This document shows positions 13,955 to 29,908 of a stretch of 64,000 bases of DNA, one piece after another. The stretch is from NCBI GenBank assembly GCA_944323875.1, contig CALUUH010000002.1, positions 1 to 64,000 on the forward strand, given 5' to 3'. Each line of letters starts with the position of its first letter. The stretch's first letter is position 1. The stretch is from Candidatus Gastranaerophilales bacterium (GTDB lineage Bacteria; Cyanobacteriota; Vampirovibrionia; Gastranaerophilales; Gastranaerophilaceae). A model generated the notes under the pieces. That model was not told the DNA's origin. It saw only the letters and a list, made by a program, of their open reading frames with translations, and made no database searches. A program made the position numbers and the translations under genes.

Positions 13955-14112
13955 GAGATCCCGCAAGGCAACAATTCTGGCGTATTGCACTCAAAAATTG
14001 CTCGCGATAAACGGCACCGTTCCGCCTTCAACGAAAACTGACCGTTTCCGTTTCGGCGTCACCTCTCGCGCTGTGCGCTCGTGCCTCTGCTCGCAATTCG
14101 CTGCGGGATGAC
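13955..14112. repeat. GATCCCGCA...TGCGGGATGAC palindromic element, long form
   Basis: The ends (GAGATCCCGCAAGGCAACAA and TGCGGGATGAC) match the two short elements at 15511 and 15653, but this copy carries about 100 extra bases in the middle. It belongs to the broad class of GCGGGATGAC-type intergenic palindromes. Confidence 0.7.
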
Positions 14113-14276: not shown

Positions 14277-14303
14277 CCAACTAAGGACTTTGTCCTTAGT
14301 TGG
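14277..14303. promoter_or_regulatory. Perfect hairpin overlapping P1 stop codon
   Basis: CCAACTAAGGAC (14277-14288) and its exact complement (14292-14303) form a 12-bp stem with a 3-base loop. The stop codon of P1 (14296-14298) lies inside one arm. A hairpin just after the variable region is a known feature of diversity-generating retroelement targets. It could alternatively be a transcript-end structure; there is no T-run directly after it. Confidence 0.75.
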
Positions 14304-15360
14304 ATATACAAACAGCGCGGTGGTCGCTGTAGTACTTGGGGCTCCAGCCATAGTCACTGCCGGTCGTGTTGGTAGTGAGGAAGTGCCGGTCGTACGCGTT
14401 GTTAGCATTGTACTCCTCACTGGACCAGTAGAGGTAGCTATTGTATTTGATTGGAGGATTTTGGGTGTATTCGTCCCTTACTTTTAGGCCGCTTGTGTAT
14501 CCTTCTGTTATATTCGCTTCTGTTCCGTCGCTATTTACATATAATGCTTGTGCTAATTGCGTTAGTTGAGCGCTTGTTGGAAGGCTCATTCCTTTTTCTT
14601 GACAAGTTAGTTTTGCTCCTGCCCAATAATTATTTGCACAGTATGAATTACTTGAGCCGTAGCTATCTAAATCTTCATATTCACTTCCATCACAGGTATT
14701 AACTGCTCTATTCGCCAGAAACTCTGTTGACCAGCACATGTCACCTATCGGGTTATCGCAGGTGGAGAATGCTACGCCGGAAGATAATTGAATATCTTTA
14801 CCTACTCTATTCGGCCCTTTCTTTCCATTTACATCTACCATATAGCCCATGCAAGATACCTGTGATCCTGTATCTTCTATAGGATCAGCATAAGGGCATT
14901 CCGGCTGGTATGCCATAATAACTGTTGTTCCGTCCGCGACAACAAAGCTCATGGTATTAGTATTCGTTTGCCAGTCGCTCAGACCCATGCTAGAAGCATT
15001 TGTAAGGCTGTCTGTTTCAACTTCCATAGGTTCTTCGTTGCTTCCTGTAGTAACGACTTTAGGTGAATAACATTTATTTATATCATTATTGTCACAGGTT
15101 TTAATCACTTTCATATATTGTTTGAAAGTGTCCATAAAGTCCTCTGTGGTATCATGTCCGGTCATGACGCCGTCGGTGTTCATACGTCTGACTGTTTCTG
15201 TGAGTTTCTTTTCCCACAAATCTTTGGCCGTAGACCATGCCTTCTCGTTATGATTTTGGATTAGGCCGGGCAAGGTCAGTGCGGCAACTATTCCAATAAC
15301 CGCGAGAGTGATTAGGACCTCGGCTAAAGTGAATGCTGATTTAGTGTTTTTTGTTGTCAT
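14296..15360 (-). CDS. Prepilin P1 with C-terminal lectin-like, putative DGR-variable domain
   Basis: The 354-residue protein opens MTTKNTKSAFTLAEVLITLA: an expected prepilin-peptidase cut between Ala9 and Phe10 with Glu at +5. 'PGLIQNHNEKAW' and paired-cysteine segments follow. From about residue 245 ('YWAGAKLTCQEKGMSLPTSAQL') a C-type-lectin-like domain runs to 'WSSEEYNANNAYDRHF' and ends 'AVCISN'. The last ~40 codons are GC-rich and NNC-rich, unlike the AT-rich body (see 14299-14430). AAAGGAGATG lies just before the ATG at 15360. A second start at 15411, also with AAGGAG, overlaps the upstream leader ORF by ATGA. P1 is likely an inner-membrane-anchored or pseudopilus-displayed ligand-binding protein. 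Confidence 0.85.
   Translation of the reverse strand: MTTKNTKSAFTLAEVLITLAVIGIVAALTLPGLIQNHNEKAWSTAKDLWEKKLTETVRRMNTDGVMTGHDTTEDFMDTFKQYMKVIKTCDNNDINKCYSPKVVTTGSNEEPMEVETDSLTNASSMGLSDWQTNTNTMSFVVADGTTVIMAYQPECPYADPIEDTGSQVSCMGYMVDVNGKKGPNRVGKDIQLSSGVAFSTCDNPIGDMCWSTEFLANRAVNTCDGSEYEDLDSYGSSNSYCANNYWAGAKLTCQEKGMSLPTSAQLTQLAQALYVNSDGTEANITEGYTSGLKVRDEYTQNPPIKYNSYLYWSSEEYNANNAYDRHFLTTNTTGSDYGWSPKYYSDHRAVCISN
14299..14430 (-). other. Putative DGR variable region in P1
   Basis: The final ~44 codons read WSSEEYNANNAYDRHF..AVCISN. Codons are mostly NNC/NNG (gag, tac, aac, gcg, gac, cgg, cac, ttc), a sharp break from the AT-rich gene body. Aligned to the end of P2, 16 residues from the Trp stay in register, with invariant anchors (gcg tac, ttc) and changes falling mainly at first and second codon positions. 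This is what adenine-directed mutagenesis of AAC codons gives. No template repeat or reverse transcriptase was found in the window. Confidence 0.6.
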
Positions 15361-15407
15361 TAGTTCATCTCCTTTCATGCTTGTATTAACTTTAATTAAA
15401 CTATTTT

Positions 15408-15938
15408 TCATGCAATTCTCCTTATTGATTTATATTGTACAATAATTCTATTCATTAAGCCACCTTTGTTTGGTTTATATGTTTTGTCACAAGTATTCAA
15501 CTTATGTTTTGAGATCCCGCAAGGCAACAACTGTGGCGTATTGCACTCAAACCGCTGCGGGATGACGGAAAGATTTTGTATGTCTTTAGCGTTAAGCTGA
15601 GTGGTGGTGCAGGCTGGCCTGCCGGTCTGCCAATGTGTAAAAGTGGACTTGGCCACCCCGCAAGGCAACAATTCTGGTGTGTTGCACTCAAACTGTTGCG
15701 GGATGACGGAATGGTTTATATATATAATATTTCCATTTTTAGCAAAATCAAGTCGCTCAGCGGGCCTTAAATGTTTTGTCCCCCCCCCCCCCGTAAAGCC
15801 AGTAATAGCAAGGGTTTCAGGCAATTGGGCGATTAAGTAGGTTTTCGAAATTTCTTCTGTTAACACTTTCGTCACTTTACTCACTCTACTCACCTTACTC
15901 ACTCCAGTCACTTTTTTACTTCTCTGCGTTTCCGACAT
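15408..15938 (-). CDS. Phase-variable leader ORF upstream of P1
   Basis: This 176-residue frame starts MSETQRSKKV after GAGGAAATAGG and carries a VSK-type tripeptide repeat (9-bp units). It passes through a G13 tract (15780-15792, read as Thr-Gly4) and continues through two palindromic repeat elements read as 'VIPQ.FECNTP.LLPCG'. It ends in an ATGA overlap with a possible P1 start at 15411. The repeat composition argues against a folded protein. Its likely role is in expression: translation through the frame could couple to P1, and a one-base change in the G-tract would stop it early, as seen in the P2 copy. Function is inferred. Confidence 0.5.
   Translation of the reverse strand: MSETQRSKKVTGVSKVSRVSKVTKVLTEEISKTYLIAQLPETLAITGFTGGGGTKHLRPAERLDFAKNGNIIYINHSVIPQQFECNTPELLPCGVAKSTFTHWQTGRPACTTTQLNAKDIQNLSVIPQRFECNTPQLLPCGISKHKLNTCDKTYKPNKGGLMNRIIVQYKSIRRIA
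15511..15566. repeat. GATCCCGCA...TGCGGGATGAC palindromic element
   Basis: About 56 bp opening GAGATCCCGCAAGGCAACAA and closing TGCGGGATGAC. It shares 'gcgtattgcactcaaa' with the copies at 13955 and 15653. It lies inside the P1 leader ORF and is read in frame. Confidence 0.8.
15653..15707. repeat. GATCCCGCA-type palindromic element, second copy in P1 leader
   Basis: Opens CCACCCCGCAAGGCAACAAT and closes TTGCGGGATGAC. The flanking 15590-15630 segment (ggtggtgcaggctggcctgc) also recurs in the P2 and P3 leaders, where it is read as PACTTT/PACTHT. Confidence 0.8.
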
Positions 15939-15980
15939 CCTATTTCCTCTTTTGCAAACTCGTTATTTTTAGTTTAACAT
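15719..15980 (-). repeat. ~260-bp upstream repeat of prepilin loci, copy 1 (G13)
   Basis: This stretch recurs at 29609-29881 with few differences: shared AGTCGCTCAGCGGGCC, a homopolymer (C13 on the + strand at 15780-15792), 'cagtaatagcaagggtttca', the 9-bp ACTCACTCT-type tandem units, the leader-ORF start and a common upstream AGTTTAACAT. The units differ in number between copies. It probably carries the promoter and 5' leader of the prepilin locus. Confidence 0.88.
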
Positions 15981-16033
15981 ATAATCCCAAAAATTTCAAC
16001 CCCTTGTCCTGGTTCTCCACATATTAGATTATC

Positions 16034-16063
16034 AAAAAACGTCCCTTTATAGGGACGTTTTTT
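16034..16063. terminator. Bidirectional terminator between glnA and the P1 locus
   Basis: AAAAAACGTCCCT and its complement form a 13-bp stem with a TTAT loop, A-rich on one side and T-rich on the other, 11 bp after the glnA stop codon. Confidence 0.88.
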
Positions 16064-16074
16064 GAATTAAAATA

Positions 16075-17439
16075 TTAGTATCTTTCCAGATATTTGTCTA
16101 ATTCCCATTGAGAAACGTACGTTCTGAATGAATCCCATTCTTTTGATTTTGCGTTCATAAATTCATTGAAAATATGTTCCCCGAGAGCAGCGCGGCCGAC
16201 GAGTGATTTGTCAAGGCAGTCAAGCGCTTCTGAAAGGTCACCCGGCAGTGAATCAATTCTCTGTTTTTTGCGTTCTTTTGATGTTAATTTGTATATGTTG
16301 CTTTCAACCGGAGCCGGCGGATCGATTTTATTTCTTACACCGTCCAGACAAGCCTCGAGAATTGCCGCAAAAGCAAGGTAAGGGTTGCAGGAAGGATCCG
16401 GAGAACGGAGTTCTATACGGGTTGCATTGCCGCGTTTTGCCGGAACTCTGACAAGTGCGCTTCTGTTAGCGAGTGACCATGCCTGATAAACCGGTGCTTC
16501 ATAACCCGGAACAAGACGTTTATAACTGTTTACGGTCGGATTTAAAACTGCTGTAATAGATTTTACGTGTTTCAAAATACCGCCGATAGAATATTTTGCG
16601 ACATCTGATAACTGATACTGTGCATTTTCATCATAAAAAGCATTTTTACCGTCTCTGAACAGAGAGATATTGCAGTGCATACCGGATCCGTTAATACCGT
16701 AAATCGGTTTCGGCATAAATGTTGCGTGAAGGTTATGTCTGTCAGCAACAGCCTTAACAGCAATTTTGAAGGTTGCAACATTGTCAGCGGTTGTCAAAAT
16801 ATCAGCGTATTTAAAGTCAACTTCATGCTGTCCGTCTGCAACTTCGTGGTGTGATGCCTCAATATCAAATCCCATTTCCTGCAAGGTTAAAACTATATCG
16901 GTACGTACATCTTCGCCAAGATCATCCGGCCCTACATCGTAATAACCGGCATGGTCTGATGTTTTGGTCGTAATTGTGCCGTTTGCATCTTTTTCAAATA
17001 AAAAGAATTCCGCTTCCGGCCCCATGTTCATAGAAAATCCCATTTTTTCGGCTTCTTGCATTACTCTTTTCAGGTTGCAGCGCGGGCAGCCTTCAAACGG
17101 TGTTCCGTCAGCGTTGTGAATATCACAAATTAATCTTGCCGCATTCACGCCGCCGCGTTCACGCCATGGCAGGATTTGGAATGTGTTTTTATCAGGATAG
17201 AAAAACATATCTGAAGTTTCAATGTTTCTAAAACCTTTGATTGATGAACCGTCAAGCATAATTTCGTTTGCCAGAACTTTTTCTATATGTTCGGAAGGTA
17301 TAGACAAATTCTTAACCTGACCGTTTATGTCAACAAATTGTAATTTAATGAACTTGATATTATTTTCTTTGATAAGCTTTTTAATATCATCGTCCGTGTA
17401 ACTCCTGTTGTTGAGAGGAATGTGGTGAAAATCTGTCAT
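16075..17439 (-). CDS. glnA: Glutamine synthetase, type I
   Basis: The 454-residue enzyme makes glutamine from glutamate, ammonia and ATP. Family motifs are intact: 'LDGSSIKGF' beta-grasp latch region, 'GPEAEFFLF' metal-binding motif, 'EASHHEVADGQHEVDFK', 'PIYGINGSGMHCNISLF' and 'RVPAKRGNATRIELRSPDPS' substrate/ATP loops. The length (~450, no ~25-residue insertion) fits the GSI-alpha group of Firmicutes-like enzymes, normally feedback-inhibited rather than adenylylated. I see no clear adenylylation-site motif. It is divergent from a glutamate synthase-type gene, so the pair plausibly forms the ammonia-assimilation module. Confidence 0.96.
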   Translation of the reverse strand: MTDFHHIPLNNRSYTDDDIKKLIKENNIKFIKLQFVDINGQVKNLSIPSEHIEKVLANEIMLDGSSIKGFRNIETSDMFFYPDKNTFQILPWRERGGVNAARLICDIHNADGTPFEGCPRCNLKRVMQEAEKMGFSMNMGPEAEFFLFEKDANGTITTKTSDHAGYYDVGPDDLGEDVRTDIVLTLQEMGFDIEASHHEVADGQHEVDFKYADILTTADNVATFKIAVKAVADRHNLHATFMPKPIYGINGSGMHCNISLFRDGKNAFYDENAQYQLSDVAKYSIGGILKHVKSITAVLNPTVNSYKRLVPGYEAPVYQAWSLANRSALVRVPAKRGNATRIELRSPDPSCNPYLAFAAILEACLDGVRNKIDPPAPVESNIYKLTSKERKKQRIDSLPGDLSEALDCLDKSLVGRAALGEHIFNEFMNAKSKEWDSFRTYVSQWELDKYLERY

Positions 17440-28096: not shown

Positions 28097-28123
28097 CCAA
28101 CTAAGTCCAAAGTCCTTAGTTGG
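28097..28123. promoter_or_regulatory. Hairpin overlapping P2 stop codon
   Basis: CCAACTAAG and CTTAGTTGG pair as a 9-bp stem enclosing a 9-base loop. The P2 stop codon (28116-28118) is in one arm. It is the counterpart of the 12-bp hairpin at P1 (14277), with the same outer sequence but two mismatches inside. Both are followed, reading out of the gene, by GTGTGAA. Confidence 0.7.
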
Positions 28124-29516
28124 ACAGACAAACCGCGAGGAATCTGCGGCCGTAGCGGCCGTGGCCGTACCAGTACGTGCTGGTAGGGTCGAAGTAGCGG
28201 AGGTACGCGATGGTCTGGCTGGTCTCCCGCCCTGACCAAACAAAGACTCCTAGGGAACCGCTTGGGGTTTGAGCAATGAAGAGTGAAGCTCGATCTGCAT
28301 CCCAGTTTGCATTTGTTGTACCTGAGCTGCTTATTGAATCTGCTGTTGGATATATGTATGCAGCTAATTGTTCTAGCTGGGCTTGGGTTGGCATGTTTTG
28401 AATACCCCCGCATGCTTTCACTGCTCCTGCCCAATAATCACTTGTATAGCCTCCACAATATGCTTTATTATTTCCATAGCCTTCATCTGCTATTTGTTCA
28501 CATTCTGCTTTGCTCAGGGCACTATATCCTGTTCCTGGAGCTAATATCTGTGTTATACACATTGTATCTGCTAATTCCGGTATCATACAGCCTGTTACGC
28601 CTGCTAATTCTTCTACGTTTATCTTACCTATATCTTTACCATTCGTATTAGGATTTTTGTTGCCTGATACATCGTAAAGAATTGCCATGCTGTTTGAAGT
28701 TGCACTAAACTGGTTGTTAAACGGGTCCTGTGTCGCATTTGGGTTATATGCAATAACAGCATTTACTCCATTTGCAAACTGTACCGCTACAGTATCAGAT
28801 TCCCAGTCCAAACCAAAGCTTTGCGCATTCTTGATTGCGGACATGTCAACAGGTTCTTCACCTTCATTCCAGATTACTTGTTTGTCAAAACACTTTGTAA
28901 TTTCTGAATTGTCGCAAACTCTGGTGATTTTGATGTATTTTTTCAACTCATTAACAAAGTCCATAGTGCTTGAATAACCTGCTAATTTTTCTTCTGTATT
29001 CATTTGACGTGTAGCGACTTCTAGGCGCTTGGTGAATACATCTTGAGCAGTGCTCCATGCTTTTTCGTTATGGTTCTTTATTAAGCCCGGAATTGTCAGA
29101 ACAGCTACAACACCGATAATCGCCAGAGTTATCAAGACTTCGGCTAAGGTGAAAGCTGCTTTTGCGGCCACCTGAGTGGTGGTGCAGGCTAGCTTGCCCT
29201 CGGCGAGGGTGAAGGCGGCGCGCATTCCTCGCCCCTTCCGGAAGAGGATAGCAAGGCTTGACGTTGACCGTACTTCTTTAGCGGTCTCCAGAGTGTGGGT
29301 GCAGGCTGGCCTGCCTTGGTGAGGGGTCATGTCAGCCGTGTCGAATTTGTAAGACCCCTCATCCTGACCTTCTCCCCAAGGGGCGAAGGAATGTAACGAT
29401 TGTTGTTCGCCTTGTTTTGACATCTTACTCACTTCACTCACTCTACTCACTTCACTCACCTTTGATGTGTAAGAGCGGACCTGTCCGCCATAACTGTTTG
29501 TTTTTTGGTTGTACAT
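28116..29516 (-). CDS. Prepilin P2 with ~120-residue repeat-derived leader and putative DGR-variable end
   Basis: From the ATG at 29516 (AAGGAGACT upstream) the protein has 466 residues. The prepilin motif AAFTLAEVLITLAIIGVVAV begins near residue 120, preceded by an unusual leader: VSx tripeptide repeats (~18-33), 'SFAPWGEGQDEGS', 'RPACTHTLETAKEVRST', then a first AAFTLAE copy at ~100. A start at 29225 (MRAAFTLAEG) would give a shorter leader. After the N-helix come 'PGLIKNHNEKAWSTAQDVFTK' and a cysteine-containing domain nearly identical to P3. The C-terminal lectin-like domain ('YWAGAVKACGGIQNMPTQAQL') ends 'WSGRETSQTIAYLRYF...LAVCLSN' with GC-rich variable codons as in P1. Confidence 0.82.
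   Translation of the reverse strand: MYNQKTNSYGGQVRSYTSKVSEVSRVSEVSKMSKQGEQQSLHSFAPWGEGQDEGSYKFDTADMTPHQGRPACTHTLETAKEVRSTSSLAILFRKGRGMRAAFTLAEGKLACTTTQVAAKAAFTLAEVLITLAIIGVVAVLTIPGLIKNHNEKAWSTAQDVFTKRLEVATRQMNTEEKLAGYSSTMDFVNELKKYIKITRVCDNSEITKCFDKQVIWNEGEEPVDMSAIKNAQSFGLDWESDTVAVQFANGVNAVIAYNPNATQDPFNNQFSATSNSMAILYDVSGNKNPNTNGKDIGKINVEELAGVTGCMIPELADTMCITQILAPGTGYSALSKAECEQIADEGYGNNKAYCGGYTSDYWAGAVKACGGIQNMPTQAQLEQLAAYIYPTADSISSSGTTNANWDADRASLFIAQTPSGSLGVFVWSGRETSQTIAYLRYFDPTSTYWYGHGRYGRRFLAVCLSN
28119..28237 (-). other. Putative DGR variable region in P2
   Basis: The last ~40 codons (WSGRETSQTIAYLRYF to LAVCLSN) consist mainly of NNC codons (acc agc atc tac ctc cgc ggc cac). They share anchor codons gcg tac, cgN, ttc, gtt tgt and tcc aac taa with P1, while intervening codons differ at first and second positions. 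Length differs from P1 by three codons. This is consistent with adenine-specific retrohoming mutagenesis from related but not identical templates. Confidence 0.6.
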
Positions 29517-29608: not shown

Positions 29609-29881
29609 ATAATATATAATATTTCTGTTTTATGACAGGGTTAAGTCGCTCAGCGGGCCTTAAATGTTTTGCCCCCCCCCCCCGTAAAGCCAGTAATAGC
29701 AAGGGTTTCAGGCAATTGAGTGATTAAGTGGGGTTTCAAAATTTCTTCTGTTAACACTTTCGTCACTTTACTCACTTTACTCACTCTACTCACCTTACTC
29801 ACTCCACTCACTTTTTTATTTCTCTGCGCTTCCGACATCCTATTTCCTCTTTCGCATACTCATTATACTTAGTTTAACATA
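29609..29881 (-). repeat. ~260-bp upstream repeat of prepilin loci, copy 2 (G12)
   Basis: Counterpart of 15719-15980. The homopolymer is C12 on the + strand (29672-29683) instead of C13, and there is one extra 9-bp tandem unit. The upstream end (AGTTTAACAT) and AGTCGCTCAGCGGGCC are identical. The one-base difference changes which frame the leader ORF takes. Confidence 0.88.
29650..29838 (-). CDS. Leader ORF upstream of P2, stopped by G12 frame
   Basis: The 62-residue frame (MSEAQRNKKVSGVSK start) matches the first part of the leader ORF at 15408: VSK/VSR tripeptide repeats, 'VLTEEI', 'LPETLAITGFTGGGG'. After the G12 tract it reads 'KTFKAR' and stops, while the G13 copy at P1 continues for ~125 residues. 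The two copies look like alternative states of one slippage-prone switch. Its stop lies 134 bp before the P2 start, so no direct coupling is seen here. Whether the peptide itself matters is unknown. Confidence 0.5.
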   Translation of the reverse strand: MSEAQRNKKVSGVSKVSRVSKVSKVTKVLTEEILKPHLITQLPETLAITGFTGGGGKTFKAR

Positions 29882-29908
29882 TCGCGCTTATATTTTCAAG
29901 GCTTACAA

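Follow-up and report, generated by a model that had tools for sequence, protein, structure and literature searches.

Does a run of thirteen G residues in a leader reading frame upstream of a type IV prepilin gene act as a genetic switch for that gene? We think that it probably does, and that this G13 tract is one of about 28 at which slippage during replication would gate, by phase variation, a large family of type IV prepilins. The window, by which we mean the whole stretch of DNA that was analysed (64,000 nucleotides, contig C2:1-64000), belongs to a 1.94-Mb Gastranaerophilales genome that is 97% complete in 49 contigs. Nine-base G matches would be expected in it 0.04 times by chance; it holds two runs of at least nine G and no others, one at each of the prepilin loci that we call P1 and P2 (Table 1).

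Table 1. Positions of the P1 and P2 features in the window, with the basis of each assignment
Feature	Position	Strand	Basis
P1 leader promoter, predicted: TTGAAA, 17 nt, (TG)n TAAACT	15971..15999	-	consensus scan and block conserved in nine copies
Shine-Dalgarno-like GAGGAAATAG of P1 leader ORF	15940..15949	-	sequence; conserved in nine copies
P1 leader ORF, 176 codons, ON in the assembly	15408..15938	-	ORF and frame arithmetic
G13 tract, putative phase-variation tract	15780..15792	- (C13 on +)	sequence
Small inverted repeat ATAAG-N7-CTTGT between tract and P1 prepilin start	15489..15505	-	motif count
ATGA, leader stop (TGA) overlapping P1 prepilin start (ATG)	15408..15411	-	sequence, ORFs
P1 type IV prepilin ORF, 371 codons	14296..15411	-	PF07963 and TIGR02532 above cut-off
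Variable region of P1 prepilin, in putative C-type-lectin-like domain	14296..14431	-	adenine-directed hypermutation signature
P2 copy of leader element	29612..29882	-	sequence search of genome
P2 leader ORF in its assembled state, 62 codons, not switchable	29650..29838	-	frame arithmetic
G12 tract of P2	29672..29683	-	sequence
Small inverted repeat of the type A[CT]AAG-N4..12-CTTGT at P2	29587-29606		
P2 prepilin ORF, own start, N-terminal extension; processed part from 29153	28116..29516	-	TIGR02532
DGR-type variable region of P2 prepilin C-terminus (DGR, diversity-generating retroelement)	28119-28260	-	sequence

The P1 and P2 loci

The product of P1 matches PF07963, which describes the cleavage/methylation motif and hydrophobic helix of such proteins, with 24.2 bits against a cut-off of 21.2, and it scores 22.9 with TIGR02532, for which P2 reaches 16.6, the cut-off being 16.3 in both cases. 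The processed P1 protein would start at 15333 with FTLAEV, and its predicted structure has a long N-terminal helix. The consensus scan for promoters, which returned five promoter-like sites against 2.1 expected in shuffles, is weak on its own.

Much of what the first-pass annotation said of these loci holds up. G13 keeps the P1 leader open for all of its codons, so that it ends in the ATGA overlap with the prepilin start, and the proposed switch does sit in an upstream leader and not in the pilin gene; the two tract lengths read as G13 and G12 in the sequence; and the P2 leader closes six codons past its tract, reading ...GGGGKTFKAR and then a stop. The repeat of about 260 bp reported upstream of both genes is real, with seven further copies elsewhere in the genome, but "nearly identical" was too generous, the P1 and P2 copies sharing only 88% identity over the 263 nt that align. 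The two loci do not differ by a single G: P1 reads G13-A-C and P2 reads G12-C, a net difference of +2 nt and not +1. Nor are they two states of one switch, given the extra A in P1 and the fact that P2 is broken downstream, where all three frames stop (after 9, 19 or 77 nt) and where AAG stands in place of the coupling ATG found in related copies. With every frame closed and the coupling ATG gone, no tract length opens P2. P1 is open because G13 plus the A amounts to +2 nt relative to the G12 copies, and a further copy, on contig C9, is open too because its G11 is -1 relative to them. As a side observation, the N-terminal extension of P2 carries a partial second prepilin motif at 29150-29240 on the minus strand (RAAFTLAEGKLACTTTQVAAKAAFTLAEVL), as do some loci of the relative G005.

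Poly-G leaders across the genome

The P1 leader element, 281 nt long, occurs in nine copies in the genome (P1 and P2 included), which have in common a promoter-like block, a Shine-Dalgarno-like block and the leader start. Eight of them contain the run, with lengths of 13, 12 (interrupted by an A), 12, 12, 11, 12, 12 and 10 (interrupted), and the ninth (L036/L103, C10:2790-2935) has no G run, its leader being fused in frame with its prepilin, so that this locus would, to judge from the sequence, always be ON. In exact form the leader DNA is found at full length only in this genome, a search of 59 genomes giving short weak matches.

Across the genome, 67 overlapping nine-G matches group into 28 runs of at least nine G, and 27 of these lie upstream of a prepilin gene, on the coding strand and all reading G there; the 28th, on contig C27, belongs to a type B leader located where its contig ends. 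By class, six are type A (like P1) and 20 are type B, in which TATAAT is followed by an ATG, M..LARIVMDIEDLAG...ARLSDV and typically G10; the other two are the C27 run and a run on C44 that lies 148 nt upstream of another prepilin. This distribution, together with the runs inside prepilin leader peptides that we describe below for related genomes, supports the earlier suggestion of a phase-variation type of tract. The nominal binomial P for 27 of 28 is about 2e-41, which is overstated, the loci being paralogues; indeed, all our counts are interdependent because the leaders are homologous. The prepilin family itself is large: the first 194 residues of processed P1 have 89 matches in the genome, 33 of them full-length copies at least 94% identical, and 79 of the 89 were taken for the locus analysis.

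What do the reading frames say? By frame arithmetic on 27 leaders (L174, which has a different kind of leader, was left out, and L127 was kept as an exception), 24 are switchable, two of them ON (P1 and the C9 locus) and 22 OFF, and three are not switchable. In type B the leader frame gets to the tract in all 20 cases and, with the tracts as assembled, mostly G10, meets a stop 2 to 17 nt beyond it in 18; in L143, which has G11, the stop comes 142 nt past the tract, and in L127 the frame continues and misses the prepilin. In 18 loci the frame would stay open as far as the prepilin start if the tract had one base fewer, and in L143 if it had one more; L127 is again the exception. Between the end of the tract and the coupling ATG lies a multiple of three nucleotides in 19 of the 20, all but L127, and this distance takes six values (144, 228, 234, 237, 333 and 369) that derive from different inserted repeats. 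Of the ORFs that begin at the coupling ATG in the 27 leaders, 18 continue in frame into the prepilin and eight end between -4 and +6 nt from the prepilin's own Shine-Dalgarno and ATG, P2 having none; an ATGA overlap or a relay is present in 26 of the 27. These leaders show two features of poly-G phase-variable loci, a homopolymer of at least nine in the 5' region and a frame that flips with a change of one unit, as well as the overlapping stop and start of a translationally coupled pair.

Several smaller repeats accompany these leaders. An inverted repeat (A[CT]AAG-N4..12-CTTGT) lies downstream of 26 of the 28 tracts, in one of 51 tract-less prepilin loci and behind 14 of 38 tracts in relatives, and it recurs across L097-L152; we have considered it as a possible promoter, operator or processing site. 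Dispersed palindromic repeats (CCCGCAAGGCAACA...TGTTGCGGGATGACGG) are seen at 15516-15576, 15657-15717 and 13960-14020, and where they are inserted in leader ORFs they leave the frame unbroken and are read as SVIPQQFECNTPELLPCG; in-frame palindromic elements resembling them occur in other bacteria. Finally, nine-base repeats (GTGAGTNNN, read VSKVSRVSK) stand at 15845-15920, 29402-29459 and 29736-29820, and also in leaders, in N-terminal extensions of prepilins and in many other places in the genome.

Slippage and its alternatives

How might such a unit work? As we picture it, it would consist of a promoter, a leader ORF that starts before the tract, the poly-G, a stretch open in one frame only, and the prepilin ORF. 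In one length class modulo 3, ribosomes on the leader would reach the prepilin start through the ATGA overlap, a short relay ORF or direct fusion, and in the remaining two classes they would be stopped within a few codons. At the ATGA, ribosomes of the ON class would re-initiate or pass on, and the OFF state may mean the loss of coupled initiation or, possibly, decay of the untranslated mRNA. With most loci OFF, a cell would display a small and randomly changing part of its prepilin repertoire. We infer that tract length varies between cells and that the ON state would yield more prepilin, with translational coupling through the ATGA as the probable link from leader to prepilin. A set that is mostly OFF, a position at the 5' end of surface genes, a frame that flips and mixed directions of change all fit slipped-strand phase variation. 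Among the points against it is the uniformity of the type B tracts: although their flanks have clearly diverged, 16 of 20 are G10 to the base, and hypermutable tracts would be expected to vary more.

That uniformity also speaks for programmed frameshifting, according to which the tract is a fixed slippery site where polymerase or ribosome slips, giving a constant ON fraction while the DNA length hardly varies. Relatives are instructive here, since 50 of 59 carry runs of at least nine G and one, G026 (another genus of the family), has 91. In 20 stretches sampled from it, with 51 runs, 37 lie between an ATG and a frame fused to FTLAEV, that is, inside the prepilin leader peptide, with the ATG mostly 27-30 nt upstream of the run behind an AAGGAG-type Shine-Dalgarno; these 37 comprise 31 of G10, five of G11 and one of G12, and four are ON. 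G10 is the commonest length there as well (40 of all 51), and within either genome most loci would need the same single-base change to be open, just as a fixed site would have it. The direction, however, is not conserved, being mostly -1 in our genome and mostly +1 in G026 (30 of 35), and in 21 loci drawn one per genome 13 need -1 and seven need +1, with one ON and lengths from 9 to 13 (this table required an ATG and a Shine-Dalgarno-like site, so that L327, with no start found, and L337, with GTG only, were dropped). The existence of ON loci speaks against a fixed site too, and modal lengths of 9 or 10 are likewise typical of phase-variable poly-G in Neisseria, according to the parts of PMC5953494 drawn on here. 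Because the direction needed differs between lineages, we consider directional programmed slippage less likely than slippage phase variation, and in absolute terms unlikely.

In the wider family, a pattern search for a run within a leader peptide gave 263 places, spread over 36 of the 146 genomes and 15 of the 41 genera, and the reversed pattern, a weak control, gave none. Next to each other in G026 stand two copies that match base for base over the 60 nt upstream of the tract, yet one has G10 and the other G12. Among the matches listed, a prepilin is within reach downstream in 18 of 30 loci from seven relatives, and several of the others are cut by contig ends. In CALVEB01, whose loci recur as G003, the prepilins are near-identical, but a tract is present in few of the loci sampled and the leaders could not be aligned with ours for a locus-by-locus comparison of lengths. 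Not all runs in relatives accompany prepilins: one in G007 (L211) is inside an acyltransferase gene (PF01757), and those of L215, L218, L225 and L284 are in genes that look by eye like glycosyltransferases or nucleotidyltransferases. Runs also turn up within about 100 nt of contig starts (G005 C3:53, C22:8, C23:20, C37:74 and C38:40; G002 C33:56-74; G003 C13:15; G026 C17:2 and C29:63) and are sometimes very long (G24, or G19 or more), as if assemblies broke at poly-G tracts, and repeated leaders could act alike.

Might the leader instead be inert? It could be a promoter and untranslated leader spread by recombination along with the prepilin family, with the G run arising incidentally and synthesis of the prepilin depending at all times on the gene's own Shine-Dalgarno and start. 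The start does have its own Shine-Dalgarno, three leaders (that of P2 among them) cannot be switched, and selection on the leader is hard to see: pN/pS is 0.71-0.90 for the downstream part of the coding frame and 0.85 for the upstream part, other frames being no higher, and stop-creating substitutions in the coding frame number 0, 1 and 0 against 0.43, 2.47 and 0.57 expected, which is not significant. With neither amino-acid constraint nor significant stop avoidance, the case for leader translation rests on frame and architecture only, and the absence of purifying selection on the peptide speaks against a leader protein that acts in its own right, with the open frame kept all the same. Frame and architecture are nonetheless what an inert leader struggles with, since the frame survives in 19 of 20 leaders over six insert lengths, overlap or relay is near-universal, G runs in this genome go exclusively with prepilins, in related genera the prepilin has no possible coding start other than the one that contains the run, and the tract-less L103 is fused in frame to its gene. 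We regard an inert leader as rather improbable. Since a separate Shine-Dalgarno serves the coupling ATG and no fold hides this start, a certain amount of prepilin may be produced whatever the state of the tract.

The least credible alternative is that the G13/G12 difference is a homopolymer sequencing or assembly error, which we find highly improbable even though the nearest relatives are on record as short-read metagenome bins and deposited G-tract lengths in Bifidobacterium differ from those in culture (PMC9187656, in the parts drawn on here), since a single-base error would explain neither the extra A in P1 nor the system-wide association, and the type A tracts of G11 to G13 have different flanking bases and consistent frames.

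Other ways of gating the gene were considered and rejected. RNA structure fell for want of a folding signal at P1, where no structure masking the Shine-Dalgarno was found: the leader end does not fold more stably than shuffled sequence (z 0.62), and the centroid leaves the Shine-Dalgarno unpaired. Terminator-based leader-peptide attenuation fell because a scan of 15300-16120 for intrinsic terminators gave no terminator-like site separating the leader from the gene, and Rho-dependent polarity with the failure to find Rho in this 97% complete genome, in which the best match to TIGR00767 has 52 bits against a cut-off of 509.

A variable product and what it may mean

The gene behind the slippage-prone tract has a variability of its own. 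In 33 near-identical prepilins of this genome the first 195 residues are almost invariant and the last 50 variable, and the variable codons have any base at positions 1 and 2 and nearly always C at position 3, with fixed codons between them. This NNC pattern is the mark, as far as the sequences can tell, of AAC codons whose adenines have been mutated by a DGR; variable C-termini of the same type are also seen in L097-L129. In G002, of the same genus, a variable region, a template repeat and, directly behind the latter, a reverse transcriptase lie in one stretch (L321, 162-287, 1571-1696 and 1725-2888), all 15 differences between template and variable repeat fall at template adenines, and the enzyme has the motif GLPIGNLTSQ, which we take to be typical of DGRs. 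Within our own assembly, neither RVT_1 nor the G002 reverse transcriptase as query (run without a positive control) gave a match, and a search for the template repeat gave 41 matches, of which none could be recognised as one and the strong ones fell in prepilin genes; a contig missing from the assembly is a possible reason.

Our model of P1 has a mean pLDDT of 73.5, and structure comparison of residues 190-345 gave nearly exclusively C-type-lectin-like domains among its top rows (best Z 9.3, rmsd 2.5 over 97 residues; Mtd, 1yu4, Z 6.2), with Foldseek alone giving no E below 0.001 on this model. The loci resemble DGRs in prepilin C-termini that vary at NNC between invariant codons in a putative C-type-lectin-like domain, and differ in that neither reverse transcriptase nor template repeat was found in this assembly. 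We put forward tentatively, as about as likely as not, that antigens and adhesins are diversified in two layers in gut Gastranaerophilales, a retroelement writing random C-type-lectin-like variants into dozens of prepilins and stochastic poly-G gates in their leaders silencing most of these and exposing one or a few per cell. We know of no case in which a DGR is combined with a poly-G switch.

How does this compare with known systems? Poly-G phase variation is itself classical in Neisseria and Helicobacter. The closest in behaviour is Bifidobacterium breve UCC2003, where, in the sections of PMC9187656 drawn on here, a poly-G switch of sortase-dependent pili is described for bbr_0113 and bbr_1889, with a tract of 9-12 G in the first pilus gene, mixed lengths by deep sequencing, and a deposited state of two ORFs in different frames that the ON state joins. 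Both are gut commensals with a poly-G frame switch for pili, but B. breve has two loci with the tract within the pilin gene (PMC9187656), and our genome has some 28 tracts, its pilins are type IV prepilins and the tract lies in a leader ORF of its own upstream. In Neisseria, runs of nine or more lie near 5' ends and those of pilC span 9-20, an ON/OFF frame switch that is pilus-related like ours; unlike here, where 28 serve one family, the 15-19 tracts of each pathogenic or N. lactamica genome serve many gene types (PMC5953494, in the parts used). Helicobacter canadensis shares long poly-G in 5' regions, with runs of at least 10 in 5' coding regions or promoters and mixed targets, and the parts of PMC2823697 used here contain no upstream leader ORF coupled to a pilin. 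Our literature search, with most subscription journals and preprints outside its reach, found nothing that joins Gastranaerophilales with phase variation or DGRs, and no design in which the switch sits in a leader ORF distinct from the pilin gene to which it passes ribosomes; the main text of PMC8144416 mentions neither Melainabacteria, Gastranaerophil*, pilin nor phase variation. What is new is how many tracts serve a single family, the lineage in which they occur, the coupling through a leader of its own and the presence alongside of retroelement-type hypermutation.

If our reading is true, a practical consequence is that in most Gastranaerophilales genomes these prepilins will be overlooked or shortened by gene callers, their start lying in a different frame. 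This would, to our knowledge, be among the largest single-family sets of poly-G switches, and a non-pathogenic commensal lineage on the cyanobacterial side of the tree would join poly-G switches with retroelement hypermutation on one surface family. Each gut cell would then be a mostly silent library of prepilins of which a random sample is displayed, which makes commensal surface variation towards host, diet glycans or phages testable.
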